From the NCBI GenBank assembly GCA_003164785.1, contig PLUE01000026.1:101920-165919 (forward strand): a DNA stretch of 64,000 nt. Direction: 5' to 3'. Under the pieces are notes generated by a model, which ran no database searches, was not told where the DNA came from, and saw only the letters and a list, made by a program, of their open reading frames with translations. Each line of letters begins with the position of its first letter. Within the stretch, counting starts at the first letter, position 1. This DNA is from Gammaproteobacteria bacterium. GTDB taxonomy: Bacteria > Pseudomonadota > Gammaproteobacteria > Steroidobacterales > Steroidobacteraceae. A program made the translations under genes and the position numbers. Positions 6,783 to 43,203 of the stretch are shown piece after piece.

Positions 6783-6815
6783 GGCGCCACTCCGCGGCGG
6801 GATGCTGCTGTTAGA

Positions 6816-8901: not shown

Positions 8902-8919
8902 TGTATGGAGAGGAATGAT

Positions 8920-10318
<1,399 letters not shown>

Positions 10319-10332
<14 letters not shown>

Positions 10333-11506
10333 AGAACTCCGTGATGCTCGCAACGACATACGCGAGCTGCTCCTCGGCGAGCTCCGGATAGATCGGCAAC
10401 GCCAACGTTTCCGCGGCGGCTCGTTCGGATTCCGGGAAGTCTCCGGCCTTGTAACCCAAGTACGCGAAACATTCCTGCACATGCAGCGGCACCGGGTAAT
10501 AGATCTCCGTCCCGATCTTGCGGTCGGTCAGGAACTTCCGTAGCTCGTCGCGACGTTCCACGCGGACGATGTACTGGTTGAAGATATGGCGCTGTCCAGG
10601 CACTGCGTGAGGCGTGACGACCACCTTGCGCCCCACGCCGGCCCCCAGCTCCGCTTTGGCAAACGCGCGATCGTAAAATGCTGCATTGCGCTGGCGGCCC
10701 TCCGTCCATCCATCCAGATACTTCAGCTTCACGCGCAGCACTGCCGCCTGCAACTCATCGATGCGAAAATTACCGCCGATCACCGCGTGGTAATACTTTG
10801 GCTTTCCGCCGTGGACCCGCAACACGCGCATTCGCTCAGCGAGTTCGGCATCTTGAGTGGTGCACAAGCCCGCATCGCCGAACGCACCGAGGTTCTTGCT
10901 CGGAAAGAACGAAAAGCAGCCAATATCGCCTATGGAACCCGCGCGCGTGCCGTTTTGGTACTCCGTGCCGATGGCTTGTGCGGCGTCCTCGATCACCCTC
11001 AGCCCATGGCGCCTGGCTATCGCCATCAACGGCGACATGTCGGCCGACTGACCATACAGATGTACGGGCATGATGGCCTTGATGCGCCCACCGGTGGCGC
11101 GATGAACGAGGCCGTGTTCGCCCTCGGTGCATTCCGCATCGATGAACAACTGCAGCGCGGTCGCGGATAGGTTGAATGTGAGCGGATCGATGTCGCAAAA
11201 CACCGGCCGAGCCCCGGTTCGCGCAATGGCGCCGGCGGTGGCGAAAAACGTGAAGGGCGACGTCAACACCTCGTCGCCGCTGCCGATTTCGAGAGCCATC
11301 AGGGCGAGCAAAAGGGCATCGGTGCCCGAGGAAACGCCGATTCCGTGCTCTGAACCGCAGTACCGTGAAAGCTCCTCCTCGAGCCCCCGTACGTGCTCGC
11401 CGAGAATGAATTGTTGGCTGGCGCACACTGACTCGATCAGCGGCATCACTTCGGTGCGGATCTGCGCAAATTGCGCCTTAAGATCCAGTAATGGAACGTT
11501 TGTCAT
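10319..11506 (-). CDS. DegT/DnrJ/EryC1/StrS-family sugar aminotransferase
   Basis: 395 residues, fold-type I PLP enzyme that aminates keto-sugar nucleotides (WecE/ArnB/DesV type). It has the [12 protein letters not shown]-terminus, [13 protein letters not shown] phosphate-binding block, [12 protein letters not shown] with the PLP-ring Asp, and [14 protein letters not shown] with the Schiff-base Lys. The C-terminal [14 protein letters not shown] is typical of the family. In this locus it would supply an amino sugar for the exopolysaccharide; substrate cannot be told from sequence. It is divergent from the WcaJ-like gene, with 159 bases between starts for shared regulation. Confidence 0.9.
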
Positions 11507-11665: not shown

Positions 11666-13072
11666 ATGACTCAGCCGGTTCTTGCTAAACAGAGCTTCTT
11701 GATCGCGATATTGGCCGGCGTCCAGGCGATCATGCCCGCCATCGTGGCGGTGGCATCCTTGTATGCGACCATCGTCCTGTTCGGTGATTCCTTCGACCCG
11801 TCCTCGTCCGCGATCGTGATCGTCGCGGTGCTGTGTCTCGTGCTGGTGCAGCCGCCCCGCGAGGTCAGTTCGCAGATCACCTCGCCGCGGATCTCCGCCG
11901 TGGTCGACGTGATTTTCAGGTGGCTGCTGATTTTGGCGGTGCTGCTGGCCATCGGTTACGTGACGAAATCACCGTTGCAGGTGTATCCGCGCCGGGTGTT
12001 CCTGACCTGGGCCGCGACGACGCCGGTGGCGTTGATCTTCGCTACGCTGGCGATGCAGGAAGTCATGCGCCGCTTCCTGCTGAACGCGTTCGACAGCCGC
12101 AGCGCCATCATCGCCGGCTACAACAGCAGCAGCCTCGAACTCGCGCGGCGCTTGAAGAGCAACCCAGGCATGCGCCTCGAGGTGTCCGGGTTCTTCGATG
12201 ATCGCAGCAGCGAACGTCTGGGAATGGAGCCGGACGCCAAACTCATCGGCAGCCTCAGCGATCTCGGAACCTATGTGAAGGAGCACCGGACGGACGTGAT
12301 CTTCCTGGCTCTGCCGATCCGCCATTTGAAGCGCGTGATGGATTTGCTGGACGACCTCCGCGACACCACCGCATCCATCTATTTCGTGCCGGACATCTTC
12401 GTCTTCGACCTGATCCAGGCACGCTCGGGGGACATTCACGGCATCCCGGTCGTCGCGATGTGCGAGACGCCGTTTTACGGCTATCGCGGTGTGGCCAAGC
12501 GGCTCACCGATATCGGACTGTCCGTCATGATTCTATTGATGTTATTGCCGCTCCTGGCGTTGGTCGCCGTGATGGTGAAAACGTCATCGCCCGGTCCGAT
12601 CATTTTCAAGCAGCGCCGCTATGGGCTCGACGGACGCGAAATCGCGGTCTACAAGTTTCGAACCATGCGCGTCACGGAAGACGGCGCCCAGATACGCCAG
12701 GCGTCGCGCACCGACAACCGCATCACACGCGTGGGCGGCCTGTTGCGGCGGACCTCGCTCGACGAGTTGCCGCAGTTGATCAACGTGTTGCAGGGGCGCA
12801 TGAGCTTGGTCGGCCCGCGGCCGCACGCGGTCGCGCACAACGAGGAATACCGCAAGCTCATCAAGGGCTACATGGTCCGCCACAAGGTGCTGCCGGGAAT
12901 CACGGGCCTCGCGCAGGTCAACGGTTGCCGCGGCGAGACCGCGGAACTGAAGGATATGGAGGCGCGCGTCAATTTCGACCTCGACTACCTGCGCCACTGG
13001 TCGCCCATGCTCGACATCAAGATCATTCTGTTGACCGTCGTGAGGGTCTTTCGGGACGACAAGGCTTATTGA
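11666..13072 (+). CDS. undecaprenyl-phosphate phosphoglycosyltransferase (WcaJ-like EPS initiator)
   Basis: 468 residues. Four N-terminal membrane helices precede a CoA-binding-like Rossmann domain (FDSRSAIIAGYNSSSLELARRL), a fifth helix (LSVMILLMLLPLLALVAVMV) and the catalytic bacterial sugar transferase domain. The signatures PGPIIFKQRRYGLDGREI, VYKFRTMRV, TSLDELPQLINVL, SLVGPRPHA and PGITGLAQVNGCRG are all present. Enzymes of this large polytopic class transfer a hexose-1-phosphate, usually glucose, to undecaprenyl phosphate and start the repeat unit. Its C-terminus overlaps the convergent PPTase gene by 7 bases. Confidence 0.92.
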   Translation: MTQPVLAKQSFLIAILAGVQAIMPAIVAVASLYATIVLFGDSFDPSSSAIVIVAVLCLVLVQPPREVSSQITSPRISAVVDVIFRWLLILAVLLAIGYVTKSPLQVYPRRVFLTWAATTPVALIFATLAMQEVMRRFLLNAFDSRSAIIAGYNSSSLELARRLKSNPGMRLEVSGFFDDRSSERLGMEPDAKLIGSLSDLGTYVKEHRTDVIFLALPIRHLKRVMDLLDDLRDTTASIYFVPDIFVFDLIQARSGDIHGIPVVAMCETPFYGYRGVAKRLTDIGLSVMILLMLLPLLALVAVMVKTSSPGPIIFKQRRYGLDGREIAVYKFRTMRVTEDGAQIRQASRTDNRITRVGGLLRRTSLDELPQLINVLQGRMSLVGPRPHAVAHNEEYRKLIKGYMVRHKVLPGITGLAQVNGCRGETAELKDMEARVNFDLDYLRHWSPMLDIKIILLTVVRVFRDDKAY

Positions 13073-13764
13073 CCGGGCGGCGCGGTCATCGCGGCATCGG
13101 CTGCCGCAGCGACGCCAGCCGAGACGAATTGTTCATGAAACAGATAGCGGCCGGGCGGCATGACCGCGTATCGGCTGAATCGGAGGTCGCGCATCGCGTG
13201 AGTTCGGAAAACACCCGTGGATTCGCCCCAATCCGGCACCTCGATGCGCAGATCATGAAAGTCGAGCCATTCGGTGACCAACGGATATTGGCATTTGTAG
13301 AACGCTTCCTTGGCCGAGAACAACAGGGTCACCGCCGCTGGCCGCTCATCGGCGGCGAGCGACGCCACCCAGGCAAGTTCTTCCTCGCGGCAAATGGTCG
13401 ACCAGATATCGGGCGTCGGGGCGCCGACGCGTTCACTGTCCAGACCCAGGGCGAGGATATCGGTGCGTGCGGCCACGGCCGCCGCACAGAGACCGGTCGT
13501 GTGCGTAATGCTACCGACGTAGCCGGCCGGCCAGAGCGGCTGGCGATCGTCGGCCGCCCGCAGCGCGAACCCATGGACACCGAAATGTGCCAGTGCCGCT
13601 CGCGCACAGGCACGCCCTGCAGCAAACTCTTGAAGTCGTTTAAGCCGTGCGTGGGCCACATAATGAGCCTCGTCGGCAAGTAGCTCAGCGGGATCGCCGG
13701 GCTCGCGACTTTCGACGACGACTACAGGCGCCGGAAAAAGAACGCTTAGTGCGGCCGAGTGCAA
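13066..13764 (-). CDS. 4'-phosphopantetheinyl transferase (EntD/Sfp superfamily)
   Basis: 232 residues. It shows the two signature blocks: GLDSER (normally G-[ILV]-D-x-E) and FSAKEAFYKCQYP (F/W-x-x-KE-x-x-x-K), which hold the Mg2+ and CoA-binding residues, and an upstream GSITHTTGLCAAAVA block. The order resembles EntD of enterobactin synthesis. It should convert the four carrier domains encoded just to its right (15.8-27 kb) to holo form. It is divergent from the first NRPS gene, about 147 bases separating the two preferred starts, so both probably fire from one intergenic region. Confidence 0.9.
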   Translation of the reverse strand: MHSAALSVLFPAPVVVVESREPGDPAELLADEAHYVAHARLKRLQEFAAGRACARAALAHFGVHGFALRAADDRQPLWPAGYVGSITHTTGLCAAAVAARTDILALGLDSERVGAPTPDIWSTICREEELAWVASLAADERPAAVTLLFSAKEAFYKCQYPLVTEWLDFHDLRIEVPDWGESTGVFRTHAMRDLRFSRYAVMPPGRYLFHEQFVSAGVAAAADAAMTAPPGQ

Positions 13765-23861: not shown

Positions 23862-26800
23862 ATGGGCAAGCCAGCGAACAATGTGATCGGCCGGGAAAGC
23901 AAACCATTGGCGGTTGCCGAGGACGGCGCCGCGAGTGCGGCGTCGGCTGAGCTATTGGACGCAGCCGACACCATGGAGACGGAGCGCACCGACTTCCCCT
24001 GTTCCGTGGCACAGGAGCGCTTTTGGCTGCTGGACAGACTGGATCCCGGCGATTCATCGTACAACGTCGCGGTTCGGTGGCGCCTGGAAGGCCGGATCGC
24101 GACCGATCTGCTCGAGCAGTCATGGTTCAAGATCATCGAGCGTCATGAAGTCCTGCGGACCGTGTTCCTCGAGGTCAATGGCCAGCCCATTCAACGGGTG
24201 ATGCCAACTGCGCGCTTTCGGCTGAATGAGATCGATCTCAGCAATCTATCTCCCGAATTGCAGCAAACCGAAGGCGACCGCATCGGGGTCATCGAGGCCC
24301 GCGCGCCGTTCGACCTGGCTTCCGGCCCGCTCATTCGCGCCACGCTGCTGCGATTTTCGCCCACCATGTCGATCATCTTGGTCACCACTCACCAAATCGT
24401 GTCGGATGGTTGGTCGATCGGCATCATGGCGCGCGAAATGGGCCTCATCTATGAGGCCCTGCGCCGCGACAAGCCGATCGACCTCGAACCGCTGCCGATT
24501 CAATATGCCGACTACTCGGAATGGCAGCTGGAGTGGCTGAAAGCGCGCGGCACCGAGGCCGAAACGGCCTACTGGACCCAGCAGCTCGCGGGCATCAAGC
24601 CTTTCAAGGTGCTGCCGGACCGGCCCCGCCCGGCCATGCCGACCACGAACGGCGCTATCGCCTCGCGGGTGCTGCCGCGCGAACTCACCAACTGCGCACA
24701 GGCGTTGAGCGCAGAACGCGGCGCGACCCTGTTCGCCACCGCATTTGCGGCACTGTGTGCGACATTGGCGCGCTTCACCGGCGAGAACGAAATCGTCGTC
24801 GGCACCCAGGTATCCGGCCGTGACCAAGTCGAGCTCGAGCCGATGGTAGGCCAGTTCGTCAACTCGCTGATCCTGCGCAACGACTTGAGCGGCAACCCGA
24901 CGTTCGGCACCATCATCGACCGGGTGCGCGACACGATCGCCCAGGCGCTCGAATATCGGCACATACCCATCGAACGTTTGCTCGGAATGGTCAAGAGCGG
25001 CCGCAGCGATGCCAGTACCCCGGCGATTTCCGTCAACTTCATCTTTCAAAAGACGTTCATAACGAACACGGTGTACGACGACTTCACCCTGATCGACATG
25101 CCGTCGCTGCCGGCTGGCGCAATTTACGATCTGAATCTCTTCATGGTCGAGCGACCCGACGGTTGGCGTTTTTCCTGCCAGTACAATACGGATCAGTTCG
25201 AAGCGGCGACCGCCGAACGCTTGCTTGCCTACTTCGAAATTCTGTTGCAGAGCGCCGTATCCAACGCGTCGCAGAGGCTCTCGGACCTCGCGCTGAGCTC
25301 GCCGGACGAATCACGGCAGCTCCTCGCCGCGTTGAACGACACACGTACCTTGTATCCGCGGGAACTGAGCCTGGTTCAACTGTTCGAGGCGCAGGTTGGA
25401 CGCGCGCCGGACTCGGTGGCGGTGGCGTGCGGCGATCGCCAGATGACTTACGCGGAGCTGAACGCATCGGCAAATCGTTTCTCGGCGTATCTCCGTCACG
25501 AGGGCGTGGCGCGCGGATCCCGCGTCGGCGTCTGTCTGCTGCCCTCGATGGAGCTGCCGGTTTGTGTCCTCGCGGTTCTCAAGGCGGGCGCGACTTACGT
25601 GCCGCTCGATCCCACCGATCCGCCGCTGCGGACGGCCGAAATGATCCGTGCATCCGGCACTACCGCCGTGATCGGCCAGCGGCTGCAGCGCTCAGGGGTG
25701 TCGGAAGTGCCGGTTCACCTGATCGAGGTCGAAGCAGCGCTTGCGTACCGCAAGGACGCCGCCGGGCCCGTGGCGGGAGCCGCGACGCCGAACTCCGACG
25801 GCATCGCCTGCACCATTTTCACCTCGGGCCGCGATGACGCGTCGCGAATAGTCAACATCTCGCACCGTAATCTGACGAACTTGATCTATTCGATGGCAAA
25901 ACGGCCGGGCGTGGGCGTGCGCGACGTCGTGGTCGCCGTCTCTCCGATCACCACCAGTCGATCGGTGTTCGAGTTGTTCCTCCCGCTGATTACCGGAGCC
26001 CGATTGGTCGTCGCGCTTCAAAAGGAGCTCTCGGCGGGTCGCGCCCTGCTGCATCTTCTGCAGCGTAGCGGCGCCACCGTCATGTATGGCGCGCCCCAGG
26101 ATTGGACCGCGCTGCTGGAAGCCAACTGGATCGGGTACCCGGCGCTCAAAATGCTCTGTTCTGCGAACGATGCGAACCCGCGCCTCATCGAACGGCTGTC
26201 GACGATCGGCGGCGAACTGTGGTCGTTGTTTGGCCAGCCTGAGGCCGGAATCTGGTCTGCGATTCGCCAGCTGAAGCCGCATGATCTGTTCGCCGGACTC
26301 GGCGAGCCGATCGCCAACACGTCGTTGTACGTCCTGGGCGCCTCCCTGCGGCCCGCCCCGGTGGGTGCGGTGGGCGAATTGTACATCGGCGGCGATGGGC
26401 TCACGGAGAACGCGCTGGCCGCATCCATCGTTTCCGAGTCCGGCGCGAAACTCTACCCAACCGGCGTGCTCAGCCGGCTCCAGGCCAATGGCCAGATCGA
26501 ATATCTCGATCGCAAGGATGACCGCTTCAGCGTCCGCGGACGATCGGTCGAACCCACGGAAATCGAACAGATCCTGCTGCGTCATCCGGCCGTCGTCGAG
26601 GCCGCCGTTGCGCACATCAAGGATGCCTCGGGAGACAGCTCGATCCGCGCGTTCATCGTGACGCGTCGTGCCAGGACGAAGGATGCAGCGCGATCCGATG
26701 CCGCCCGCCTGACCGCGGATCTGCAGGCGTCGGTCAAGGAGTCTCTGCCGGAGTACCTCGTACCGGCGTCCATCGCTGTCCGGGACTCGCTGCCGCATCT

Positions 26801-27956
26801 GGCCACGGGAGCCGTGGACCGGCGTGCCCTGCAGAGCGCCACGTCACGCTCGAACTCCGGGACTGCGCAGACGGCTCCGTCCGGCGAAATCGAGGAGCGC
26901 CTGGCTGCGATCTGGACTTCGATGCTCGGCATCGAGTCGGTCGGCGCCAACGAGAACTTCTTCGAGATGGGCGGCCACTCGTTGCTGGCGGCCCGCATGT
27001 TGACGCAGGTAGAGCGCGAGTTCGGACGGCGGATCAAGCTGGCAACCCTGTTCCTTGCGCCCACCCTGGCGGAATTTGCCAAGGTCCTGACGCAAACGGA
27101 CCTGCGCGAATTCGATTTTCGCCAGGTGGTCAAGATTCAACCCCATGGGTCGAAGCGGCCCCTGATCGTCATCAACAACACGGGCATCTATTACGGGCTC
27201 GCCAAGAATCTTGGTCCCGAGCAGCCGGTGTATTCCCTGCAGCTGTTCGATCCCTCGGTCAGGGACTCGTCGCTGCCGGACACCTTGGAAGACATTGCCG
27301 CAGGCTACGTGGGATTGATACGCCGCGTGCAGCCGCAGGGGCCGTACGATTTGATGGGCTGGTGTGTCGCCGGTGCGCTGGCCTTCGAGATCGCCCGACA
27401 ACTCGCCGACGAGAAACAGGAGATTTCCCATCTGTTTCTCATCGATTCGTGGGTGCCGGGATATTTCAAGCGCCTGCCGAAACTGCGTGGCATCGTAGCG
27501 GTGTATTCGCTGCGCGCCGCGTTGATATTCGCCGATTGGCGCCGGGTATTGACCAGCCAGATCTCGATGCGCCGCTTCATCACGCAACGCACGATATACA
27601 AACGGTTGCGCCGCCTTTTCACGCGCTCGAACGCAGCGGTGATGCCGGAAGAAGAGCAAGCCAGCCCCGAGACCTACGATCAGTGGCTATTGGCGTACCT
27701 GCAGCGGGTGACTAACAACTACTCGCCGCGCCCCTACGAAGGCAAGGTCACACTGCTGCGCAGCCGCCTCGAACCCACCGGCCTGTTTTTTCAGGATGAT
27801 GCGGGGTGGGGAGCGTTCGCGTCTTCGGGCGTCAACGTTCGATTCGTCGACGGCAATCACTTCACCATGTTTCAGGATCCGGGCTCCACTCAAATGGCCA
27901 TGCATGTCGCCGCGGCCTTGGAGAGCCCCGAGAATCCGGCGCCCGCCGGCGAGTAA
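23862..27956 (+). CDS. terminal NRPS protein C*-A*-T-TE with degenerate C and A domains
   Basis: 1364 residues, 13 bases after the previous stop. The condensation domain (about 40-480) has THQIVSDGWS: the catalytic second His of HHxxxDG is Gln178. The adenylation domain (about 485-990) has lost key motifs: A3 reads FTSGRDDASR without the P-loop-like Gly/Ser/Lys pattern, A4 lacks the Asp that binds the amino group (TTSRSVFEL where FDIAGLEL is expected), A5 is FGQPEAGIW instead of YGPTE, A7 is YPTGVLS instead of YRTGD, and A10 is ATGAVDR with Ala for Lys. The carrier is intact (GGHSLLA, Ser1040). The thioesterase (about 1095-1360) has GWCVAG, so Cys1168 replaces the usual Ser, with His1333 in GNHFTMF. 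It should hold the chain and release it, but probably cannot activate its own amino acid. Confidence 0.93.
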   Translation: MGKPANNVIGRESKPLAVAEDGAASAASAELLDAADTMETERTDFPCSVAQERFWLLDRLDPGDSSYNVAVRWRLEGRIATDLLEQSWFKIIERHEVLRTVFLEVNGQPIQRVMPTARFRLNEIDLSNLSPELQQTEGDRIGVIEARAPFDLASGPLIRATLLRFSPTMSIILVTTHQIVSDGWSIGIMAREMGLIYEALRRDKPIDLEPLPIQYADYSEWQLEWLKARGTEAETAYWTQQLAGIKPFKVLPDRPRPAMPTTNGAIASRVLPRELTNCAQALSAERGATLFATAFAALCATLARFTGENEIVVGTQVSGRDQVELEPMVGQFVNSLILRNDLSGNPTFGTIIDRVRDTIAQALEYRHIPIERLLGMVKSGRSDASTPAISVNFIFQKTFITNTVYDDFTLIDMPSLPAGAIYDLNLFMVERPDGWRFSCQYNTDQFEAATAERLLAYFEILLQSAVSNASQRLSDLALSSPDESRQLLAALNDTRTLYPRELSLVQLFEAQVGRAPDSVAVACGDRQMTYAELNASANRFSAYLRHEGVARGSRVGVCLLPSMELPVCVLAVLKAGATYVPLDPTDPPLRTAEMIRASGTTAVIGQRLQRSGVSEVPVHLIEVEAALAYRKDAAGPVAGAATPNSDGIACTIFTSGRDDASRIVNISHRNLTNLIYSMAKRPGVGVRDVVVAVSPITTSRSVFELFLPLITGARLVVALQKELSAGRALLHLLQRSGATVMYGAPQDWTALLEANWIGYPALKMLCSANDANPRLIERLSTIGGELWSLFGQPEAGIWSAIRQLKPHDLFAGLGEPIANTSLYVLGASLRPAPVGAVGELYIGGDGLTENALAASIVSESGAKLYPTGVLSRLQANGQIEYLDRKDDRFSVRGRSVEPTEIEQILLRHPAVVEAAVAHIKDASGDSSIRAFIVTRRARTKDAARSDAARLTADLQASVKESLPEYLVPASIAVRDSLPHLATGAVDRRALQSATSRSNSGTAQTAPSGEIEERLAAIWTSMLGIESVGANENFFEMGGHSLLAARMLTQVEREFGRRIKLATLFLAPTLAEFAKVLTQTDLREFDFRQVVKIQPHGSKRPLIVINNTGIYYGLAKNLGPEQPVYSLQLFDPSVRDSSLPDTLEDIAAGYVGLIRRVQPQGPYDLMGWCVAGALAFEIARQLADEKQEISHLFLIDSWVPGYFKRLPKLRGIVAVYSLRAALIFADWRRVLTSQISMRRFITQRTIYKRLRRLFTRSNAAVMPEEEQASPETYDQWLLAYLQRVTNNYSPRPYEGKVTLLRSRLEPTGLFFQDDAGWGAFASSGVNVRFVDGNHFTMFQDPGSTQMAMHVAAALESPENPAPAGE

Positions 27957-27984: not shown

Positions 27985-28917
27985 CTAGTGGGCGGGCGGT
28001 GTCCACACCTGGTACGGCGGCGGTGCCGGACGTCGCTTCGCCATCGAACGTACGACCGCCACGCCATCTTCGGCCGCCAATTTGATCCTGTCGCGCCAAT
28101 CTGACGCGCGCGGCGTCGCTGGATGCAACCCCAGCTTTCGCAGGCGGCGGTTGAATCGATGCAGCTTCTCCAAGCGGTCGATCGAGCGCAGTTCGTAGTT
28201 CACGCTGAGCGCCACCGAGACGTTGTCACGGTTTTGAACCCAGTGCGGGGCGCAGGGCGGAACGTGCACGCCATATCCGGCGTGCAGGTCGTACTTGTTG
28301 CATTCGTCCTGGCGCTCGGGCCGGTACACCGCGCAATTCCTGCTGATCGCAAAGAAATCCTCGCGCTCACGCTCGGTCACCAAGGTGCGATCCGTATGAT
28401 CGAAAATATGGAACCACTTGTCGCCCGTCACCTGCAGCAGGAAATTCGTTTCCGAGTCCATGTGATAGGGCGTGATCCGTCCGGGCGAACTGACCAGAAT
28501 CAACACCTCGCCAATGGTCACGTCGGAGCGCATATGCTCGCCGGACAGCTCGATCATCGTCGCCAGAACGCTTTGCAATACGGGCGCGAAGACCGGATCC
28601 TGCTCCGTGTGCTTCAATATCACGATCGAATTGTTGTGCTCGATGTTGATGATCGTGTCTTGCAACGACTGTCGACCGATCGTGCCATCCGACCAGGTGT
28701 TGTTCACCGCCACCGGGCCGTTCGACCAATAATGTTCGCCGTGGTCGGGCATGCGGCGGGTGAGTTCGACCAAGCTCGGGATCTCGAACAGCGGATTGCC
28801 CGTGAGTTCGTGCTTGAACATGAAATTCGCGCGATTGTAATTGCGACGGAACTGACCTTGAGGGTCTGTGACGGTCACCAGACGCTCGGGCGCACGTTCA
28901 ATCGATACTGCGTTCAT
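27985..28917 (-). CDS. JmjC/cupin-like (Fe(II)/2-oxoglutarate-type) protein
   Basis: 310 residues related to the cupin-like and JmjC proteins often labelled transcription factor jumonji. The core has the double-stranded beta-helix pattern: SPGRITPYHMDSETNFLLQ with an HxD pair that would bind Fe(II), VTGDKWFHIFD, and a distal His in YGVHVPPCAPHWV. It is convergent with the NRPS operon (28 bases between stops) and sits between it and the flippase gene. A hydroxylase tailoring the NRPS/PKS product, or a sugar, is the most economical role, but this is inference: some members act on proteins or polysaccharide precursors. No membrane segment or signal peptide is seen. Confidence 0.72.
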   Translation of the reverse strand: MNAVSIERAPERLVTVTDPQGQFRRNYNRANFMFKHELTGNPLFEIPSLVELTRRMPDHGEHYWSNGPVAVNNTWSDGTIGRQSLQDTIINIEHNNSIVILKHTEQDPVFAPVLQSVLATMIELSGEHMRSDVTIGEVLILVSSPGRITPYHMDSETNFLLQVTGDKWFHIFDHTDRTLVTEREREDFFAISRNCAVYRPERQDECNKYDLHAGYGVHVPPCAPHWVQNRDNVSVALSVNYELRSIDRLEKLHRFNRRLRKLGLHPATPRASDWRDRIKLAAEDGVAVVRSMAKRRPAPPPYQVWTPPAH

Positions 28918-29023: not shown

Positions 29024-30469
29024 TCACGCACGCCCGGGTAGGCGGCTGACGAATTGGGCAACGATGGTGGGCATCGTCAGCTTCACCATTAGCACATATA
29101 CCACGGCTCCGGCAAGGACCAAAATCGGCAATGCGGCGGCGTCCGAAATGAGCGGTTCCAGCAACAAACGCAGCAGCGACACCCCCACTCCCATGGTCAC
29201 GCTCGCCGCCAATGCCGGCCACTGGGGTAGGAACACCGACGAAGCCGGGATCGCGCAATTGCGTTTCAGCAGGCTGACCGACAGAGGCAGCAAGAAGAAG
29301 GGACGGGCCGCGATTCCCGCCGAGGCTGCCACCAGACCGAGCGGCGCGCATACCACCACCGCGAGTACGGTCGTCACCGTTTGGGCCACCGAGACCACCG
29401 CTTCCGTCCGTTGGAAGTTCATCGCGAGCAGCACGGCCCCGCAGATGTACTGGGTGACCAAGGCCGCGCAGGTCAGGAGCATCAACTGCGCGGGCACGAT
29501 GGCTCCCGCCCATCGCGGGTCGAGCCACACATGGAACAGCGTCGGTACGATGGCCGCGCCGCCGACACATAGGGGAAAGCAAAACAAGGTCAGCAGGGTC
29601 AATATCCTCTGCAGCGCCGCCTCGAGCCCGACCCGGTCATTCACGTACTTGCGCAACTCGATCCGGGCGACCACATACCGCGGGACGACCGCAACTTCCA
29701 TCAGGATATCCCCCAGCCGCGCGGCCAGGCTGAACAGGCCCAATTCCGTCGAGCCCCAGTACAAACCCAATATGACCCTCGGGATCTGCTGACTTCCCCA
29801 GGACAGAAACTTCGATAGCATCGATGGTGCGGCGAATTGCACCAAATCGTGGAAGTGCCTGCCGGAGAACCTCATGCTGAACTTGAGTGGAACGGCGTAC
29901 CAGAGGACGACCAACGAAACCAGCCGGGTGACGATGGCCTGCCATACCAAGGCCCACACTCCGGCGCCGGTCAGAGTCAGCGCCAGACCGATCACTCCTC
30001 CCACCACCAGGCTGCCGATCGAGCGCAGCGCCAAGGGTTGGAATTGCATCTCGCGCTTGGTGGCGGCGGTCGGAGCGGCGGCGAACGCACTGATTGCCGG
30101 CAGAATGGCCATCCAGCGCAGCATGCGGGCGAGCTCAGGATCGCCGAACCAGCCGGCGATCCGATCCGCACCGAAGAAAACGGCGATGCCGATCACCACG
30201 GACAACGCCACGTTGGCGGCGGTCATGGTCGAAAAGTGTTCATCGTCGATCTTGCGAATCGAGATCAAGGATTCCGCGGCAGCCTCTCCCGGCACGTATT
30301 CGCAAAAACCGACGAACACCATGACGATCGAAATCAGACCGAACGCCCGCGGGCCGAGCACCGGCGCCTGAATTGCGAACAACAGCAGCGCAAAAACCTG
30401 GGAAAATACCGTCTTCGTAGTCAGCCACGAAGTCGGCGATAATTTCGCGAAAACTTTCATGCGGGACAT
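29024..30469 (-). CDS. Wzx-type polysaccharide flippase
   Basis: 481 residues with about 12-14 hydrophobic segments and the MATE/MVF-like layout of the Polysacc_synt_3 (WzxC/AmsL) branch of lipid-linked oligosaccharide flippases. Typical blocks are the N-terminal AIQAPVLGPRAFGLISIVMV, the middle FAAPSMLSKFLSWGSQQIPRVILG and the LYWGSTELGLFSLAARLGD stretch. It would move the undecaprenyl-linked repeat unit across the inner membrane. It is transcribed leftward, away from the Wza-Wzz-kinase operon whose start lies about 240 bases away. A second flippase-like gene lies at 43.4 kb, so the locus may make two glycans or use one flippase for a sub-unit. Confidence 0.88.
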   Translation of the reverse strand: MSRMKVFAKLSPTSWLTTKTVFSQVFALLLFAIQAPVLGPRAFGLISIVMVFVGFCEYVPGEAAAESLISIRKIDDEHFSTMTAANVALSVVIGIAVFFGADRIAGWFGDPELARMLRWMAILPAISAFAAAPTAATKREMQFQPLALRSIGSLVVGGVIGLALTLTGAGVWALVWQAIVTRLVSLVVLWYAVPLKFSMRFSGRHFHDLVQFAAPSMLSKFLSWGSQQIPRVILGLYWGSTELGLFSLAARLGDILMEVAVVPRYVVARIELRKYVNDRVGLEAALQRILTLLTLFCFPLCVGGAAIVPTLFHVWLDPRWAGAIVPAQLMLLTCAALVTQYICGAVLLAMNFQRTEAVVSVAQTVTTVLAVVVCAPLGLVAASAGIAARPFFLLPLSVSLLKRNCAIPASSVFLPQWPALAASVTMGVGVSLLRLLLEPLISDAAALPILVLAGAVVYVLMVKLTMPTIVAQFVSRLPGRA

Positions 30470-30705
30470 CTGGCGAAGGGGGCTTTCGAAATGGTATCCG
30501 ATGCTCGGTGGGTATTCAGTGACCGGGTCGCACTAATGCAAACCACCGTCAACACGGATTCGCCAGCGCGGTGAGGCGAATGTAGCGGACTGTCGATCAA
30601 TGCCTTTCCTCACCGGTCAATGATAGTAATATATTCATCGTCGAGTTGCGCTATAACGGATATTTCTAGAATATGTTAAACAACGGGATCCAGGTGGTGC
30701 ATTCG

Positions 30706-31563
30706 ATGACTCGCTGGTTTGGAGGCAGGCGAGCATTGGGCTTGCTTTGCGCGATCTTCCTGGGAGCAGTTGTTGGAGCCGGCCAACCTGCGGTCGCCGC
30801 GGACCCCCAGACTCCAGGCGACAAGCCCGACAAGGCCCCGCTTCTGCAGCTGGGACCCGGGGACAGCGTCAGCATCCAGGTATACGGCCAACCGGACATG
30901 AGTTCCACCGTTTACGTGGGCGACGACGGCAACATTTCCATTCCGCTGGCCGGCAACGTCCAGGTGACGGGGCTATCCCCGGCTCAGGCCAGCGGTCGCA
31001 TAGAGAATGCCTTGAAGACCGGGAAAATCCTCGTGGACCCGCATGTCTCAGTGACGGTCACCCAGTCTAGAAGTCAACGTGTCTCGGTGCTGGGCCAGGT
31101 CGGCACGCCGGGGCGCTTCCCGATCGAATCGAACACCTCGATCTTCGATCTGCTCGCCCAGGCCGGCGGTGTGACGAGCACCGGTTCGGACATGATCTAC
31201 ATCATTCGACAGGACAAGGACGGAAAGGAAACCCGCTATCCGGTCGATTTGAAGGGTTTGGCGAATGGCGCTGGAGCGTTACCATCGATCGCGCTGCGAG
31301 GCGGAGACTCGGTTTTCGTACCGAAGGCCGAGCAGTTTTCGATCTATGGCGAGGTCTCGACGCCCGGCCGCTACCGCGTCGAGCCGGGAATGACGGTGAT
31401 CGAGGCGATTGCGAAGGCAGGGGGCATCACCCAGCGCGGCAGTCAGCGCCGGGTGGAGATCAAGCGCAAGCTTCCGAATGGAAACTACTCGCACGTGAAG
31501 GCCAAATTTGGGGACTTGGTGCAGCCCGATGACGTCATTCAGGTCAAGGAGAGCATTTTTTGA
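30706..31563 (+). CDS. Wza-like outer-membrane polysaccharide export protein (EpsE type)
   Basis: About 285 residues. A signal peptide (MTRWFGGRRALGLLCAIFL, cleavage near AVAAD) precedes the poly-export domain (LGPGDSVSIQVYGQPDMSSTV) and two SLBB domains (SVLGQVGTPGRFPIES and SIYGEVSTPGRYRVEP). No lipobox Cys follows the signal, so this is the non-lipidated EpsE variant rather than E. coli-type Wza. The ATG at 30673 in frame has no ribosome-binding site; the ATG at 30706 has AGGTGG about 9 bases upstream and places the signal peptide correctly. It is first gene of a tightly packed export and chain-length operon, the next gene overlapping its stop. Confidence 0.9.
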   Translation: MTRWFGGRRALGLLCAIFLGAVVGAGQPAVAADPQTPGDKPDKAPLLQLGPGDSVSIQVYGQPDMSSTVYVGDDGNISIPLAGNVQVTGLSPAQASGRIENALKTGKILVDPHVSVTVTQSRSQRVSVLGQVGTPGRFPIESNTSIFDLLAQAGGVTSTGSDMIYIIRQDKDGKETRYPVDLKGLANGAGALPSIALRGGDSVFVPKAEQFSIYGEVSTPGRYRVEPGMTVIEAIAKAGGITQRGSQRRVEIKRKLPNGNYSHVKAKFGDLVQPDDVIQVKESIF

Positions 31564-33014
31564 AGTCGCGTCGAAACTTACCCGTGCTGGCGGTTGCAAA
31601 TCCAGTGACCATGGCCGTCAGTCATGCGCAGCCGGCCCAGCAGGAGTCCGAATCGCCGGGTCTGTCCGCCCTGCAAATCTTCTCGATCGTGCGTGCGTAT
31701 GCCTGGCAGACGCTCGTCATAGTTGGCGTCATATCCGTGCTGACGGCGGGTCTCATCAAGATGATGCCCAAGACCTATACGGCGACGGCGACGTTGATGG
31801 TGAGCCCGGAGGGCAACGATCCACTTGCAACCAACCAGGCGAACGCCACACCGCTGTTCAATTACATGTCGACGGAATCGCAGCTCATGCTGAGCGCGGA
31901 AGTGCTGCTGCCTCTCATCGACAAATTGAATCTCGCGCAGGACAAGAACTACACCGCAGGCTATGCCGGCGACGGGAGCACGCTGCGCGATTACATTCGT
32001 GAGAACCTGATAAAGTCCTTGGACATCCAGCTCGGAGCATTCGGCAGCCAGCTCATCTACATCAGCGCGTCGGCGCGCAATCCGCAACTCGCCGCCCAGA
32101 TAGCCAATACGCTGGCGGACGTCTATTTGAATCAGCAGCGCGGCCGTGTGTCCGGCCCGGCGAGCGAGCGGGCGAAGCGCTACGCACTGGAGCTCGCCGA
32201 ACTGAAGGACAAGGTTCGGGTGGCCCAGGATCAGGTGACCGCATTCCGCCAACGCACAGGCGTGACCAACACCACCGAGAAGAACAACAACGTCGAGCAG
32301 GCCCTCCTCGGCAGTCTCCAAGCGCAGCTGCAGGACGCCTCCAACGCGCGCCGCGCGGCGGAAGTCAAGGCGGCGGCGGAACAGAGCGCGACAAGCGCGG
32401 CGGGCACACCCGCGGTGCAGAGCATGAAAGCGCTGCTCAACACGCAGCAGACGCAACTGGCGCAACTGCGCACCACCTACGGAGCGCAACATCCGAAAGT
32501 CATGGAGCTCGAGAGCCAGATCCATGCGACCCAGCGTAATTTGGATGTCGAGATGCACGGCGTTGCGGCGACGAATTCAGCGGATCTCATGGCGGCACAG
32601 CAGCTCGAGGCCAAGATGCGCGTTGCCGTCGAAGAACAAAGGAACAAGGTGCTCGGCGTCAACAAGCTGCAGGACGATGGCACCAAGTACGAGCTGGAAC
32701 TCGAATCGGCCCAGTCGGTCTACAAACGGGCGCTCGACGGGTACGACCAGATCATGTTCGCTTCGGGCGCACACAGCGCGAACATCAGCGTCGTGAGCGC
32801 CGCCGTTCCGCCCCAGAAGGTCACCAAACCCAACAAGCCGAAGCTGCTGCTTATGGGCATTATGGCCGGCATTTTCGTCGGCCTTCTCGCGCCGCTTCTC
32901 TATGAACTCTTCGTCAACCGGCGAATCCGGACGCGTGATGATTTCGAGCGTAGCTTCAACATCCCGGTGCTGATCGAGTTCGATCGCATCGTCTCATTCC
33001 CAACTACCGTATGA
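31560..33014 (+). CDS. Wzz-family chain-length determinant (EpsF type)
   Basis: 484 residues. One membrane helix near the N-terminus (TLVIVGVISVLTAGLIKMM) and one near the C-terminus (KLLLMGIMAGIFVGLLAPLLYELF) flank a long periplasmic coiled coil. YTATATLMVSPEGND after the first helix and PPQKVTKPNKPKLLL before the second are typical of polysaccharide co-polymerases. The start codon is TTG at 31560, overlapping the previous stop, with AAGGAG 7 bases upstream; no ATG gives a full N-terminus. It should set glycan length together with the polymerase and the adjacent kinase. Confidence 0.9.
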   Translation: MKSRRNLPVLAVANPVTMAVSHAQPAQQESESPGLSALQIFSIVRAYAWQTLVIVGVISVLTAGLIKMMPKTYTATATLMVSPEGNDPLATNQANATPLFNYMSTESQLMLSAEVLLPLIDKLNLAQDKNYTAGYAGDGSTLRDYIRENLIKSLDIQLGAFGSQLIYISASARNPQLAAQIANTLADVYLNQQRGRVSGPASERAKRYALELAELKDKVRVAQDQVTAFRQRTGVTNTTEKNNNVEQALLGSLQAQLQDASNARRAAEVKAAAEQSATSAAGTPAVQSMKALLNTQQTQLAQLRTTYGAQHPKVMELESQIHATQRNLDVEMHGVAATNSADLMAAQQLEAKMRVAVEEQRNKVLGVNKLQDDGTKYELELESAQSVYKRALDGYDQIMFASGAHSANISVVSAAVPPQKVTKPNKPKLLLMGIMAGIFVGLLAPLLYELFVNRRIRTRDDFERSFNIPVLIEFDRIVSFPTTV

Positions 33015-33940
33015 ACTCCCCATCACCGGCAGATTACGACCGTGCCGATTCCGTCGAGTTGAGCGCGGCGCTGATCTCCGAGCTCGGCCTCTCCGACGTG
33101 TCCGTTCAAAGGATCTATGAGTTCATGCAATCCATGGACACGAACTTTCCGGATGCCGCAGCGCGTCTTGGAATCCTGAGGCCGGAAGCGATTGCTGAAG
33201 CACTCATCAAGATCCGGACCCAGCGGCCGCCGGAAGATGTGGGCATGATCGAGTCGGCGATACGCCGAATCGCTTCCGACAGACGAGTAGTGCTTCGTCA
33301 AGGCGAGCGCGTCACACCCGGCCCGCATTTGATTCTTGCGCATGATTCCGACAACCCGCGCAGCGAACGTCTGAGGGCGCTGCGCACGGAATTGCTGCTG
33401 CTGCACGAGGCAGGACGCGGCGCCAACATGGTCGCCATATTGAGCCCGGGTTCCGGAGAGGGGCGATCCCAGCTGTGCGCCGAGTTGGCGATTTCCTTCG
33501 CTCAGCTCGGGCGACGTACGCTCCTGGTGGACACCGACATGCGCAAGCCGCAACAACACGTCCTGTTTGGGGCATCCTACGGAGATGGGCTGTCGCAGGC
33601 GATTGCCCGGAACGAGAAGCCGTGCTACCACCCGGTCGCCGGTTTGCCGACCATGCATCTGTTGACTGCCGGGCCGATCCCCAAGAATCCCTTGGAACTG
33701 CTGTCCGACGGACGATTCAGCAATCTTCTCGCCGAATGGCAGAACTCCTACGAGTTCATCGTGCTCGACACGCCGCCGGTTGCGCAATGCGCGGACGGGC
33801 TCGCGGTGGCAACCATGGCGGCGCGCGCGCTCGTGCTGAGCCGGGCCAAGCACACGACCTATCGAAGTACGAAGGCTTTGCTTCGCCGGCTCGAGAGTAC
33901 GCAGTCGAGATTGCTCGGAGCTGTGATCAACCATTTTTGA
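33011..33940 (+). CDS. EpsG-type chain-length tyrosine kinase (BY-kinase family)
   Basis: 309 residues, starting in an ATGA overlap with the Wzz gene. A 110-residue N-terminal helical domain, reminiscent of type II secretion GspE-like N-termini, precedes a MinD/BY-kinase ATPase domain: Walker A-like SPGSGEGRSQLCAELA, Walker A' LLVDTDMRKPQQH and Walker B EFIVLDTPPVAQCADG. The GEGRS form with Arg for Lys is usual in EpsG proteins, so it is not a defect. There is no Tyr-rich C-terminal tail; the protein ends GAVINHF, so tail autophosphorylation as in Wzc is not expected. Cytosolic partner of the membrane Wzz protein. Confidence 0.87.
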   Translation: MNSPSPADYDRADSVELSAALISELGLSDVSVQRIYEFMQSMDTNFPDAAARLGILRPEAIAEALIKIRTQRPPEDVGMIESAIRRIASDRRVVLRQGERVTPGPHLILAHDSDNPRSERLRALRTELLLLHEAGRGANMVAILSPGSGEGRSQLCAELAISFAQLGRRTLLVDTDMRKPQQHVLFGASYGDGLSQAIARNEKPCYHPVAGLPTMHLLTAGPIPKNPLELLSDGRFSNLLAEWQNSYEFIVLDTPPVAQCADGLAVATMAARALVLSRAKHTTYRSTKALLRRLESTQSRLLGAVINHF

Positions 33941-33959
33941 TCGGCCTCGTTGCCGATCG

Positions 33960-34880
33960 ATGATCTCTATGAACACGGTCAGCCTGTGTATTGCTACTTA
34001 CCGCCGGCCGGAACGCCTGGCGGCGTTGCTCGAGGATCTAACCCGTCAGAGACTGTTGCCGGACGAGGTTGTGGTGGTCGACAACGATCCCGGGGCGAGC
34101 GCGCAAAGCGTCGTCGAGGAGCGCCTCCGTCTGGGCGCACCCTTCCCCATCCGCTACGCGATGCAACCGCAAAAAAACATTTCTCTGACGCGTAACAAAA
34201 CCGTGGAACTTGCGGGCAGCGAATGGCTCGCGTTCATCGACGACGATGAACGGGCGCCGGCGGCCTGGCTGGCACAGCTCATGGCCGCCGCAGAGCGCTT
34301 TGGCGCTCACGGCGTGCTGGGTCCGGTGGATCCGGTGGTGCCGCCCTCCGCGCCCGGTTGGATCCGCCGTGGACGCTTCTACGACTTTCCGCGCATGGCG
34401 ACCGGCACCGTCATTCCACCCAATCGACTGCGCTTCGGCAACGTGCTGCTGCAGGCATCCCTTGTGCGCCCCATGGAAGGACCGTTCGATCCGTCGCTGG
34501 GGCTGACCGGCGGCGAGGACGGTGACTTATTGTCGCGCCTGGTGCTGGGCGGCGCCCGCATCGTATGGTGCGATGAAGCGATGGTGAGTGAACCCGTCGA
34601 AACATCGCGTTTGTCGCTGCAATGGCTGCTACGCCGCGCACTCAGCGGCGGTCAGGATTTCGCACGGCACGCGCTCGCAGGTCGTTATGGTGCGATGCCC
34701 TTCGGCAGGCGGGCGATGTTCTTTTTGCGCGCCTTGGTGCAGGCTATGGCGGCAGCAGGACTCGCGCTCGTCATTTGGCCACTGGGGAGACATCATGCGG
34801 CGCGCTGGCTCACCACGCTTTCGGCGAATATCGGGAAATTGTCGGTGTTGTGGGGCTGGCGATACCGCGAATATGCGTGA
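33960..34880 (+). CDS. GT2 family glycosyltransferase
   Basis: 306 residues, GT-A fold. It starts SLCIATYRRPERLAALL, with the nucleotide-binding VVVDNDP strand, the metal-binding DxD as IDDDERAP, and an acceptor-side GGEDGDLLSRL block with the likely catalytic base in GGED. One C-terminal hydrophobic stretch (FFLRALVQAMAAAGLALVI) may anchor it to the inner membrane. It lies 19 bases after the kinase gene and 3 bases before the next GT2 gene, all in one operon, so it should build the EPS repeat unit. Sugar specificity cannot be read from sequence. Confidence 0.88.
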   Translation: MISMNTVSLCIATYRRPERLAALLEDLTRQRLLPDEVVVVDNDPGASAQSVVEERLRLGAPFPIRYAMQPQKNISLTRNKTVELAGSEWLAFIDDDERAPAAWLAQLMAAAERFGAHGVLGPVDPVVPPSAPGWIRRGRFYDFPRMATGTVIPPNRLRFGNVLLQASLVRPMEGPFDPSLGLTGGEDGDLLSRLVLGGARIVWCDEAMVSEPVETSRLSLQWLLRRALSGGQDFARHALAGRYGAMPFGRRAMFFLRALVQAMAAAGLALVIWPLGRHHAARWLTTLSANIGKLSVLWGWRYREYA

Positions 34881-34883
34881 CCT

Positions 34884-36074
34884 GTGATCACGCTGGTCAC
34901 CATATTCCTGACCCTGCTCGGCCTGCCCGCGGCGCTGGCCTGCGCCTATCTCCTGATCGCGACGCTGATGTCGGCCGCTCCGAGAATGCCGCCGCCGTCG
35001 GCACGCCGATTGCGCTTCGACGTGTTCGTGCCGGCCTATAACGAAGAGTCGGTCATCGCCCGGGTGGTCGGCAGCCTCAAGCGGCTGGACTGGCCCGCCG
35101 ATCGTTTCCGGGTTATCGTCATCGCGGATAACTGCAGCGATTCCACGTCGCGCGTCGCGACGGCCGCCGGCGCCTCCGTCTGCGCGCGCAGCAATTTGAC
35201 CGAGCGCGGCAAGGGTTACGCGCTGGCCTATGCGTTCGCGCAAAGTGCCGACGAAGCATGGGCCGACGCGGTGGTCGTCATCGATGCCGACTCGGAAGCG
35301 TCCGCGAATCTGCTCGAGGCGTTTGCGACGCGCATCGAACGCGGCGCTCATGCCATCCAGGCGCATTACGGCGTGCTGAACCCGTTCGCATCATGGCGCA
35401 CCCGCCTGATGACGATCGCACAGGCCGCCTTTCACATCGTTCGCTCGCGCGCCCGCGAGCGGCTCGGCGTGTCGTGCGGCATCCGCGGCAACGGCTGGTG
35501 CGTCACGCACGCCCTGCTGAAGCGGGTTCCTTACCAGGCATTCTCGCTGGCGGAAGACATCGAATACGGAATCGAGCTGGGACTTGCCGGTCAACGTGTC
35601 GAATATGCTGACGAAGCGCATACGAATGCAGACATGGTCTCCGGCGAGCAGATTGCCGGCAAACAGCGGCAGCGCTGGGAGAACGGCAGGCTGCATCTGA
35701 TTCGCACCGAGACCGCGGCATTGCTGCGCGCGGCGCTGCGCAAGCGCAGCCGGGTGTGCCTCGATCTCGCGCTCGACCTGCTGGTGCTGCCCCTGTCCTA
35801 CATCTGCCTGAACGTCGCGGCGTTCATCGTGGCGGTAGGTCTCGCGGCGTGGCTCGAGCCGCAACTGCGGGTGTGGCTTTGGATCAGCCTCGGCTGCGCG
35901 ACGAGCATCGTGCTCTACGTCCTGCGTGGCTGGCAATTGAGCGGCATCGGCGCGCGCGGATTATTGGATCTCGCGCGCGCACCCGGATTTCTTTTGTGGA
36001 AAATAATTTTAATGTTCAAGAGCCGGGCCTCGAAGGAATGGATTCGGACCGAGCGCGAGAAGCCGAAGGCGTAG
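34884..36074 (+). CDS. membrane-bound processive-type GT2 glycosyltransferase
   Basis: 396 residues starting with GTG at 34884, almost touching the previous gene. An N-terminal helix, a GT-A catalytic domain and two to three C-terminal helices give the BcsA/hyaluronan-synthase-like layout. D,D,D,QxxRW motifs are seen: IADNCSD, VVIDADSEA, SLAEDIEYG and KQRQRWENG. Such enzymes often make beta-linked glucan or related chains, but monofunctional members with this layout also occur in EPS clusters. It is the last gene of the operon from 30.7 kb; about 235 bases without genes follow. Confidence 0.87.
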   Translation: MITLVTIFLTLLGLPAALACAYLLIATLMSAAPRMPPPSARRLRFDVFVPAYNEESVIARVVGSLKRLDWPADRFRVIVIADNCSDSTSRVATAAGASVCARSNLTERGKGYALAYAFAQSADEAWADAVVVIDADSEASANLLEAFATRIERGAHAIQAHYGVLNPFASWRTRLMTIAQAAFHIVRSRARERLGVSCGIRGNGWCVTHALLKRVPYQAFSLAEDIEYGIELGLAGQRVEYADEAHTNADMVSGEQIAGKQRQRWENGRLHLIRTETAALLRAALRKRSRVCLDLALDLLVLPLSYICLNVAAFIVAVGLAAWLEPQLRVWLWISLGCATSIVLYVLRGWQLSGIGARGLLDLARAPGFLLWKIILMFKSRASKEWIRTEREKPKA

Positions 36075-41811: not shown

Positions 41812-43203
41812 CTATCTTCGCCTCGGACCGGTGGGCGCCGCACGGGGTTGAGTCGAGCGCGCTTCGAGCAGGCCGCGCGACAGCGAAAATGTGGCGAGGG
41901 TCACCACTGCGATCGCGAACGCCGAATTTACGGCGAACCAGGTGCTCTCCGATAAATTCGTGATGGCTTGTTGGAAAAAGATCGCGAGAAAGAGCATGCC
42001 TTGGCCGCGGTCGAATTTCATCAACTGCAGCGATTGGTACACCCACGAAACGAGATAACCGATCAGGCAGAACAACCCCACGAACCCGAGATCGTTGACA
42101 ACCTCCAGATAGCCGTTGTGCGACTGGGTGGGATAGAAGTACATCCGCCCCAAGAACACGTACGAGGGGGAAGCCGGCGTGGGACCGGTCCAATAGGCGC
42201 CATAGCCCGAGCCGAGCAGCGGCGCGAGTTGCACGTGCTCCTTGATGATGTCCCAGATTGCCGAACGGTTCGAGAACGTCATGTCCTTGCCGGTCAGCGA
42301 GGTAATGGGATCGAGCAACATGCTCATGCCGGGGATGACATTCAGGACCGCGAGGGCATAGATCACCACCAGCGACGCAAACGCCGACACGATGTAGGGC
42401 ATGAAACGGCGCAGGCTCTTCGGGGCGACCATCACCATCAACATGTAAAAAGTTGACAAGGTAGTCGACATCAGTGAGGTGGAGCTGCGCGACAGCAGCA
42501 CACAGGCAAAGGACAGCGCGATGAACGGGAATGCCACCCACCATTTCTTTTCGTTGTTGAACCACGCATGCAGCCAGAGCACGACGCCGAAGCTCGCGAG
42601 GATGCCGAACTGGTTTTTCTGAGACGTCAACCCGCGCCAAGAGTTCTTCAAGGTTCCCTCGCCCACCTCGACGCCATATTGGGGATATGCCAGCGCGAAG
42701 ATGATCGACCCGATCAACAACGCGGTGATCACCGGACGCAGCACGTCCTGAAACCGCGTCCGGTTCCACCCGTAGATCGTGAATGCGAGACAGACGACCG
42801 CAATGGACAGGACGGATACATACCTGTTGGTCGTTGCCGAGGGCTCGATGGACCAGATGATGCTGAGCGGCACGAGACCGAGAAAACACAGGAAAAATGC
42901 ATTCAGAGCACGAATCTCGAGCCACGCCAGCCGCATCTTCCAGAGCACGATGACCGTGCTCACGATCATGAGCCCGAGCTTGATTGTCCTCGCCAACGGA
43001 TTCGGGGCGGCCATGTCCGCTTCGGCCAGAATCAGATCGCCCGTAAAATATTGGAGCGGCACCGCGAGATAGACGATCAAAACCCAAATCATGACCGTGG
43101 TGATCAGCGACCCACGGCTTTGCGGTGCAAGGGCCCGGCCGCCCGCCGGGGGGGCCGCCGGAGGCGTTCGGCGCAGCGAACGGCGAGTAAGCGGAATATT
43201 CAT
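41812..43203 (-). CDS. Wzy-type polysaccharide polymerase (O-antigen ligase family)
   Basis: 463 residues with about 11-12 membrane helices. The large periplasmic loop with LTSQKNQFGILASFGV, the SRSSTSLMSTTLS helix and the SHNGYLEVVNDLGFVGL block (the His of the Wzy_C/WaaL pattern) place it in the O-antigen ligase/polymerase family. In a Wzx/Wzy locus with Wzz and a kinase it should be the block polymerase of the EPS. It is divergent from the second flippase gene. Its proline/alanine-rich N-terminus (TPPAAPPAGGRAL) is cytosolic and probably disordered. Confidence 0.9.
   Translation of the reverse strand: MNIPLTRRSLRRTPPAAPPAGGRALAPQSRGSLITTVMIWVLIVYLAVPLQYFTGDLILAEADMAAPNPLARTIKLGLMIVSTVIVLWKMRLAWLEIRALNAFFLCFLGLVPLSIIWSIEPSATTNRYVSVLSIAVVCLAFTIYGWNRTRFQDVLRPVITALLIGSIIFALAYPQYGVEVGEGTLKNSWRGLTSQKNQFGILASFGVVLWLHAWFNNEKKWWVAFPFIALSFACVLLSRSSTSLMSTTLSTFYMLMVMVAPKSLRRFMPYIVSAFASLVVIYALAVLNVIPGMSMLLDPITSLTGKDMTFSNRSAIWDIIKEHVQLAPLLGSGYGAYWTGPTPASPSYVFLGRMYFYPTQSHNGYLEVVNDLGFVGLFCLIGYLVSWVYQSLQLMKFDRGQGMLFLAIFFQQAITNLSESTWFAVNSAFAIAVVTLATFSLSRGLLEARSTQPRAAPTGPRRR

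Follow-up and report, generated by a model that had tools for sequence, protein, structure and literature searches.

The DNA analysed here (hereafter the window) is a 64,000-nucleotide stretch of contig PLUE01000026.1, from a gammaproteobacterium of the family Steroidobacteraceae, and it carries a polyketide synthase–nonribosomal peptide synthetase (PKS–NRPS) assembly line flanked by exopolysaccharide (EPS) genes. The line ends with a protein of condensation (C), adenylation (A), carrier (T) and thioesterase (TE) domains, in which the A domain is stripped of catalytic residues and the C domain carries an altered motif. Since a whole family of relatives has lost A-domain catalysis but conserved the C, T and TE domains, this module probably incorporates no amino acid. 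We give about an even chance to the full reading, namely that this is a non-elongating hand-over and release module built on a pseudo-adenylation scaffold. What it delivers is likely a short amino-polyketide-glycine chain, with a sugar of the EPS as the putative acceptor.

A terminal module with a degenerate adenylation domain

The terminal protein (P0001, 1364 amino acids) is encoded by a single open reading frame on the forward strand (23862-27956), whose start sits 13 bases past the stop of the preceding PKS–NRPS gene. Pfam places Condensation at residues 43-488, AMP-binding at 508-848, AMP-binding_C at 900-983, PP-binding at 1012-1075 and Thioesterase at 1109-1351. On the same strand, the C domain spans 23988-25325, the A core, which has the A fold, 25359-26540, the C-terminal subdomain of the A domain 26541-26861, the T domain 26889-27095 and the TE domain 27114-27917.

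Motif positions in the A domain were placed by alignment to its intact counterpart in P0002, the protein encoded just before it. The A3 stretch (FTSGRDDASRIV, 25818-25853) reads FTSGRDDASR and is without the A3 loop and its Lys, a Ser occupies the position of the A4 Asp (in TTSRS, 25950-25973), A5 is FGQPE (26229-26243) and A7 is YPTGV, with its Asp lost (26454-26468). In the C-terminal subdomain, TGAVDR (26805-26822) replaces the A10 Lys motif. These losses had all been listed in a preliminary description of this DNA and are indeed present in the sequence; its statement that every core motif is damaged was too strong, as the stretches that we take to be A1 (MTYAEL), A2 (LKAGATYVPLD) and A9 (LPEYLVP) look intact. 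The A-domain profile comparison proposed at that time points the same way: NCBIfam TIGR01733 (amino acid adenylation) scores the degenerate domain at 254.1 bits, below its cut-off of 317.4, and the two upstream A domains at 415.2 and 421.7 bits. The catalytic A3, A7 and A10 residues required of a canonical elongating C-A-T-TE module are missing from the window copy. The frame of about 4 kb is intact and kept as a protein, as first described, and relatives share the losses in intact frames as well, which rules out a sequencing or frame error behind the damaged motifs.

A loss common to a whole family

Relatives were collected by protein searches with residues 480-1100 and 40-490 (the best 120 matches of each), to which genome loci were added. 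A protein was counted as a member when its C domain was at least 65% identical or, where there was no C match, when its TE was at least 60% identical; all other proteins stood at 45% or below. Within these matches, this sharp identity gap sets off a family of 107 members including the window copy, among which eight are shorter than 1190 amino acids and two pairs are at least 95% identical. Residues were counted on the family alignment with rows gapped at a site set aside, and the controls outside the family, drawn from the same homology searches, are no random sample.

None of 101 members keeps the A3 Lys, which all 112 control A domains possess; the A10 Lys survives in three of 100 members (P0063, P0131 and P0143), against 114 of 114 controls. 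The A3 Thr survives in 5/106 members, the A5 Pro in 0/106 and the A5 Glu in 79/106. When seven key A residues were scored in the 107 members, none had all seven and the best two kept five; thus, an orthologue with intact motifs, which would have made the window copy a lone decaying allele, was not found in this family. The loss is thus old and common to the family, and catalytic residues are gone from every member scored, with the A fold predicted to remain.

The degenerate domain has also diverged far more than its neighbours. Its core is 26-49% identical between genomes, against 62-77% for the A core of the upstream module, in 15 of 15 genome pairs. Across the 98 full-length members, mean pairwise identity is highest for the C domain (76.7%), followed by T (69.7%), TE (63.9%), the A core (50.1%) and the A subdomain (37.5%). 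This subdomain is gone from L004, L006 and P0135, that is, from three of the 98 members whose C, T and TE domains are all complete, following losses in at least two separate places of the tree. No member with the terminal C and TE domains that lacks the A core was found among these 98, collected from the best 120 matches per search. Retention of the core in 98/98 members, despite three subdomain deletions, suits a role as a scaffold.

An altered condensation domain beside intact carrier and thioesterase domains

The terminal C domain, the best conserved of the module, is 60-77% identical between genomes and exceeds the upstream C domain (56-72%) in 15 of 15 pairs. Its motif is HQxxxDG (HQIVSDG at 24390-24410), in which Gln replaces the second His in 104/104 members; the surrounding His, Asp and Gly are invariant in the same 104. 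Among 118 C domains outside the family, this site holds His in 116, Ala in two and Gln in none. The HHxxxDG expected of a canonical elongating module is thus absent throughout. The nearest outside group consists of C-C-A-T-TE proteins, whose second C domain best matches the terminal C domain of the family (43-45% identity), and in the rows inspected both the second His and the A domain of this group are intact. As the Gln and the dead A domain are confined together to the family, loss of loading and change of the C site go hand in hand.

Of 103 members, 102 have the carrier Ser (GGHSL in the window); the remaining one (P0043) is a fragment of 1034 amino acids that lacks a PP-binding domain. 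In the TE domain, the nucleophile is Cys (GWCVAG) in 103/103 members, and the Asp and His of the triad are each found in 101/101. The family therefore shares with canonical modules the T serine and the TE triad, and the initial view that C, T and TE keep their folds stands for the presence of the domains and for these residues, but not for the C motif. The Cys of the TE was considered as a special feature and dropped, since 22 of the 27 control TEs have it too.

For comparison with known systems, we drew on published sources (PMC11546977, PMC8949500, PMC6668435, PMC12400406 and PMC4351081). Relative to the canonical C-A-T-TE proteins AB3403 (4zxh), EntF (5ja1) and SrfA-C (2vsq), the family differs by its dead A domain and by the Gln in its C motif. 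A Cys nucleophile is shared with the TEs of ObiF, as published, and of AB3403, in whose sequence GWC is found, and is nothing distinctive. The closest parallel for the C motif is ORF18 of streptothricin biosynthesis, a C-PCP protein with HQxxxDM that couples an aminoglycoside with a beta-lysine chain held on a carrier, and whose activity is weakened by mutation of the Gln to Ala. A review describes the function of the second His as debated, its mutation not always abolishing activity. Because ORF18 works with HQ and the role of this His is debated, the terminal C domain is best read, by analogy, as having a changed rather than a dead active site.

The upstream assembly line and possible loading in trans

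Two proteins precede the terminal module on the forward strand. An A-T starter protein (P0003, 13818-15830) is followed by a KS-AT-ACP-aminotransferase-C-A-T protein (P0002, 15827-23848), the aminotransferase domain of which is of class III (domains from Pfam, A codes by alignment). The A code of P0002, DILQLGMIWK, is identical in the seven genomes compared and is one that we take to specify glycine. The code of the starter is DAFWLGGTFK in five cases, including the window, and DFWNIGMVHK in three (L034, L035 and L036, the A-T proteins of G011, G021 and G007); presumably, the former is valine-like and the latter stands for threonine. Judging from these two codes, the starter unit may differ among lineages. 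The starter A-T and the PKS are fused into a single protein in L004, and in G007 the sole A-T protein found is on a different contig. In P0042, a live A domain is fused straight ahead of the terminal C domain and, therefore, the glycine-type module would be the one that feeds it.

The preliminary description had left two alternatives for the module, either loading of its carrier in trans, with the glycine-type A domain of P0002 as a candidate, or mere passage of the chain to the TE. In the former case, the terminal C domain would form an amide and the product would gain one extra residue. Such a module, with an intact T domain and no working A domain in cis, is what trans loading needs, and precedents exist: the dead A domain of albicidin biosynthesis is trans-complemented, as is the capreomycin module CmnI, which has no A domain. 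A donor is also at hand. Both A domains of the genome of the window (G000) that pass the TIGR01733 cut-off belong to this assembly line, and there are likewise two such domains in each of G007, G014, G021 and G363, and six in G011. The glycine-type code, moreover, is invariant in the genomes compared. A trans-loader, if any, is thus the starter or the glycine-type A domain, or something unlike NRPS A domains.

Nevertheless, CmnI, a module shown to be trans-loaded, retains HHXXXD, whereas the second His is gone from all 104 members of the family. No dedicated, conserved stand-alone loader for this T domain is evident either; the stand-alone A-T protein was considered for that role, which is weakened by its starter-like fusion to the PKS in L004. 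The family thus resembles albicidin synthetase and CmnI in having a module without its own working A domain inside an assembly line, and departs from CmnI at the C site. Since the terminal C domain has lost the His that CmnI keeps, passage of the chain to the TE fits better than loading by the glycine-type A domain, which we regard as rather unlikely, though as the strongest of the competing explanations.

The exopolysaccharide locus

The assembly line lies within a locus of the Wzx/Wzy type. Before it are a DegT/DnrJ/EryC1 aminotransferase (10319-11506, reverse strand; Pfam), a WcaJ undecaprenyl-phosphate glucose phosphotransferase (11666-13072, forward; TIGR03023, 494.6 bits for a cut-off of 410.75) and a 4'-phosphopantetheinyl transferase (PPTase; 13066-13764, reverse; Pfam 4PPT_N and ACPS). 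After it come a Wzx/MOP-type flippase (29024-30469, reverse; Pfam), genes for EPS export, chain length, a kinase and glycosyltransferases (EpsE, EpsF, EpsG, EpsD-like and EpsU-like; 30673-36074, forward; family names, most scores being below curated cut-offs), two of the flanking genes being glycosyltransferases, and a Wzy-type polymerase/O-antigen ligase (41812-43203, reverse; Pfam Wzy_C). Flanking sequence was available for eight genomes (the window, L001, G007 = L002, L004, G363 = L006, G011, G014 and G021; L005 has none), and in all eight a Wzx-type flippase is encoded no more than about 7 kb from the module. G007 has WcaJ, DegT, EpsE-G and Wzy, and G363 the majority of these, so that membership of a Wzx/Wzy-type polysaccharide locus extends across several genomes.

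Co-occurrence was examined in 60 genomes, G000 and 59 relatives. The module is present at 55-100% identity in exactly G000, G007, G011, G014 and G021, and the flippase at 47-100% in the same five and at 27% in G025. With G000 set aside, a close copy of the flippase is present in 4/4 genomes with the module and 0/55 without it, a result with a chance of 2.2e-6 in a bare draw, a figure that takes no account of the non-independence of the relatives. EpsE occurs in 13 of the 60 genomes and the EpsU-like transferase in nine, both also where the module is absent; thus, the flippase, rather than the locus as a whole, tracks the module.

The EPS locus also occurs, with its DegT, WcaJ and PPTase genes, in G001 and G004, where the slot of the NRPS is occupied by other genes. 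Between PPTase and EpsE, these NRPS-less loci (L037, G001:C36, 9655-20000; L039, G004:C6, 12667-17586) hold differing genes. The slot contains an AMP-binding protein, a 3-oxoacyl-ACP-reductase-like protein and a long-chain-acyl-CoA synthetase in G004, and hydrolases, a GH2-like protein, DUF1839 and an acyl-CoA-dehydrogenase-like protein in G001. As to an acylation cassette in this slot, the picture is mixed, with acyl-activating enzymes in G004 but not in G001. Outside the slot, in the EPS locus of G004 (L040), a motif scan picked out a carrier-like short frame, and a HAD/FkbH-like stretch was seen by eye (about 13956 and 14768).

Several other features of the region were recorded. A cupin-like protein is encoded just after the module (27985-28917, reverse; weak Pfam Cupin_8, 23.0 bits for a cut-off of 27.4). 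A PAF-acetylhydrolase-like protein lies directly 3' of the module in L001 (14033-15514) and L004 (16929-18278) and is absent from the window. Two GMC oxidoreductases, acyltransferase-3 proteins, two GH5-type proteins and a DUF1080 protein are conserved between the window (30673-58825), L027, L030 and L038, the GMC oxidoreductase at 40223 being 79% identical in G363. Upstream of the EPS locus (5802-10332) are an APH-type phosphotransferase family protein (5802-6782), a histidine kinase and a sigma-54 response regulator, and a similar regulator also precedes the EPS locus in G001. Promoter and terminator scans gave counts on a par with those of shuffles, and a tRNA scan of the window found none. 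A match was present in 299 plasmid records, all below 60% identity (best 33%), with no family member among the eight matches listed.

Proposed route and competing explanations

Under the hand-over and release reading, the starter A-T protein and the KS-AT-ACP-aminotransferase-C-A-T protein would build a short chain ending in glycine. The terminal C domain would take this chain from the glycine carrier but no longer condense it with an aminoacyl group on the T domain of its module, and the chain would then move to T and on to the Cys of the TE. The TE may transfer it to a sugar of the EPS, perhaps an amino sugar made with the DegT aminotransferase, after which the Wzx-type flippase would move the acylated lipid-linked unit. 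The degenerate A domain would have been retained as a platform letting T swing between C and TE. A further possibility, which we advance tentatively, is that the whole PKS–NRPS line decorates EPS, its last module having changed from the addition of amino acids to a sugar acylation station with a pseudo-adenylation scaffold, a matching flippase and a C domain that, with Gln in its active site, accepts either the sugar or a bare carrier thiol in place of an aminoacyl carrier.

Several observations weigh against this reading. Loss of the A4 Asp is no family trait, as 61 of 106 members keep it (111/112 outside the family), and an earlier supposition that all orthologues had lost it proved wrong; the A7 Asp is kept in 57/105 members (113/113 outside), and three members even retain the A10 Lys. 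The carrier Ser is preserved, as in a loaded carrier. A Gln in the C motif is compatible with amide formation, by analogy with ORF18, which is active with it, and a C domain that is the best conserved of the module would also suit an active condensing enzyme. As for the EPS connection, the genomes in which flippase and module co-occur are relatives, so the counts are not independent events, and neither a carrier nor an AMP ligase was found in the slot of G001, which weakens its interpretation as an acylation slot.

Next to trans loading, the alternative to be weighed is that the terminal C domain itself, like ORF18, transfers the chain onto a free amino sugar, with T and TE left to hold or edit it. 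The shared HQ and the sugar context, here an EPS setting with a DegT aminotransferase and there an aminoglycoside acceptor, speak for it, as does the composition of ORF18, a C domain and a PCP with no A domain. However, the motif of the family ends in DG (Gly in 104/104) and not in the DM of ORF18, and the family has, unlike ORF18, an A core and a TE, the fully conserved triad of which is hard to reconcile with release at the C domain. The likeness is, besides, one of motif, as described in a review. This explanation is thus distinctly unlikely.

Less probable by far is that the terminal C domain is a non-catalytic platform on which the cupin-like protein or another tailoring enzyme is recruited. 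In glycopeptide synthetases, the X domain, a C-type domain with a damaged HHxxxDG motif, does recruit oxygenases, and cupin relatives are found near the module in L001, L004, L006 and L022 as well as in the window. Yet none was found near it in L002 or L024, and the other motif residues (His, Asp and Gly) do not vary within the family. Finally, a decaying relic without a present role hardly deserves credence. In its favour, the A domain erodes variously and has lost its subdomain more than once; against it, the reading frames are unbroken and the C, T and TE domains have been conserved, with invariant catalytic residues, across a broad family.

Significance

Dead A domains and their complementation in trans are already known. 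In the literature, no description was found of a family combining a dead A domain, an HQ-type C domain and an EPS locus, most subscription journals being outside the coverage of the search, and a search for "HQxxxDG" gave no match. A dead A domain is usually taken as a pseudogene-like oddity or as the sign of a trans-loader. Here, it is a fixed trait of a family, linked with one unvarying substitution in the C domain and standing beside fully conserved T and TE domains. The family also offers a simple test of the role of the second His in C domains, the point called debated in the review. If the hand-over and release reading is true, these proteins would represent a natural case of an NRPS module converted from chain elongation into a hand-over device, of use for engineered chain release or grafting, and would tie assembly-line chemistry to the modification of exopolysaccharides.

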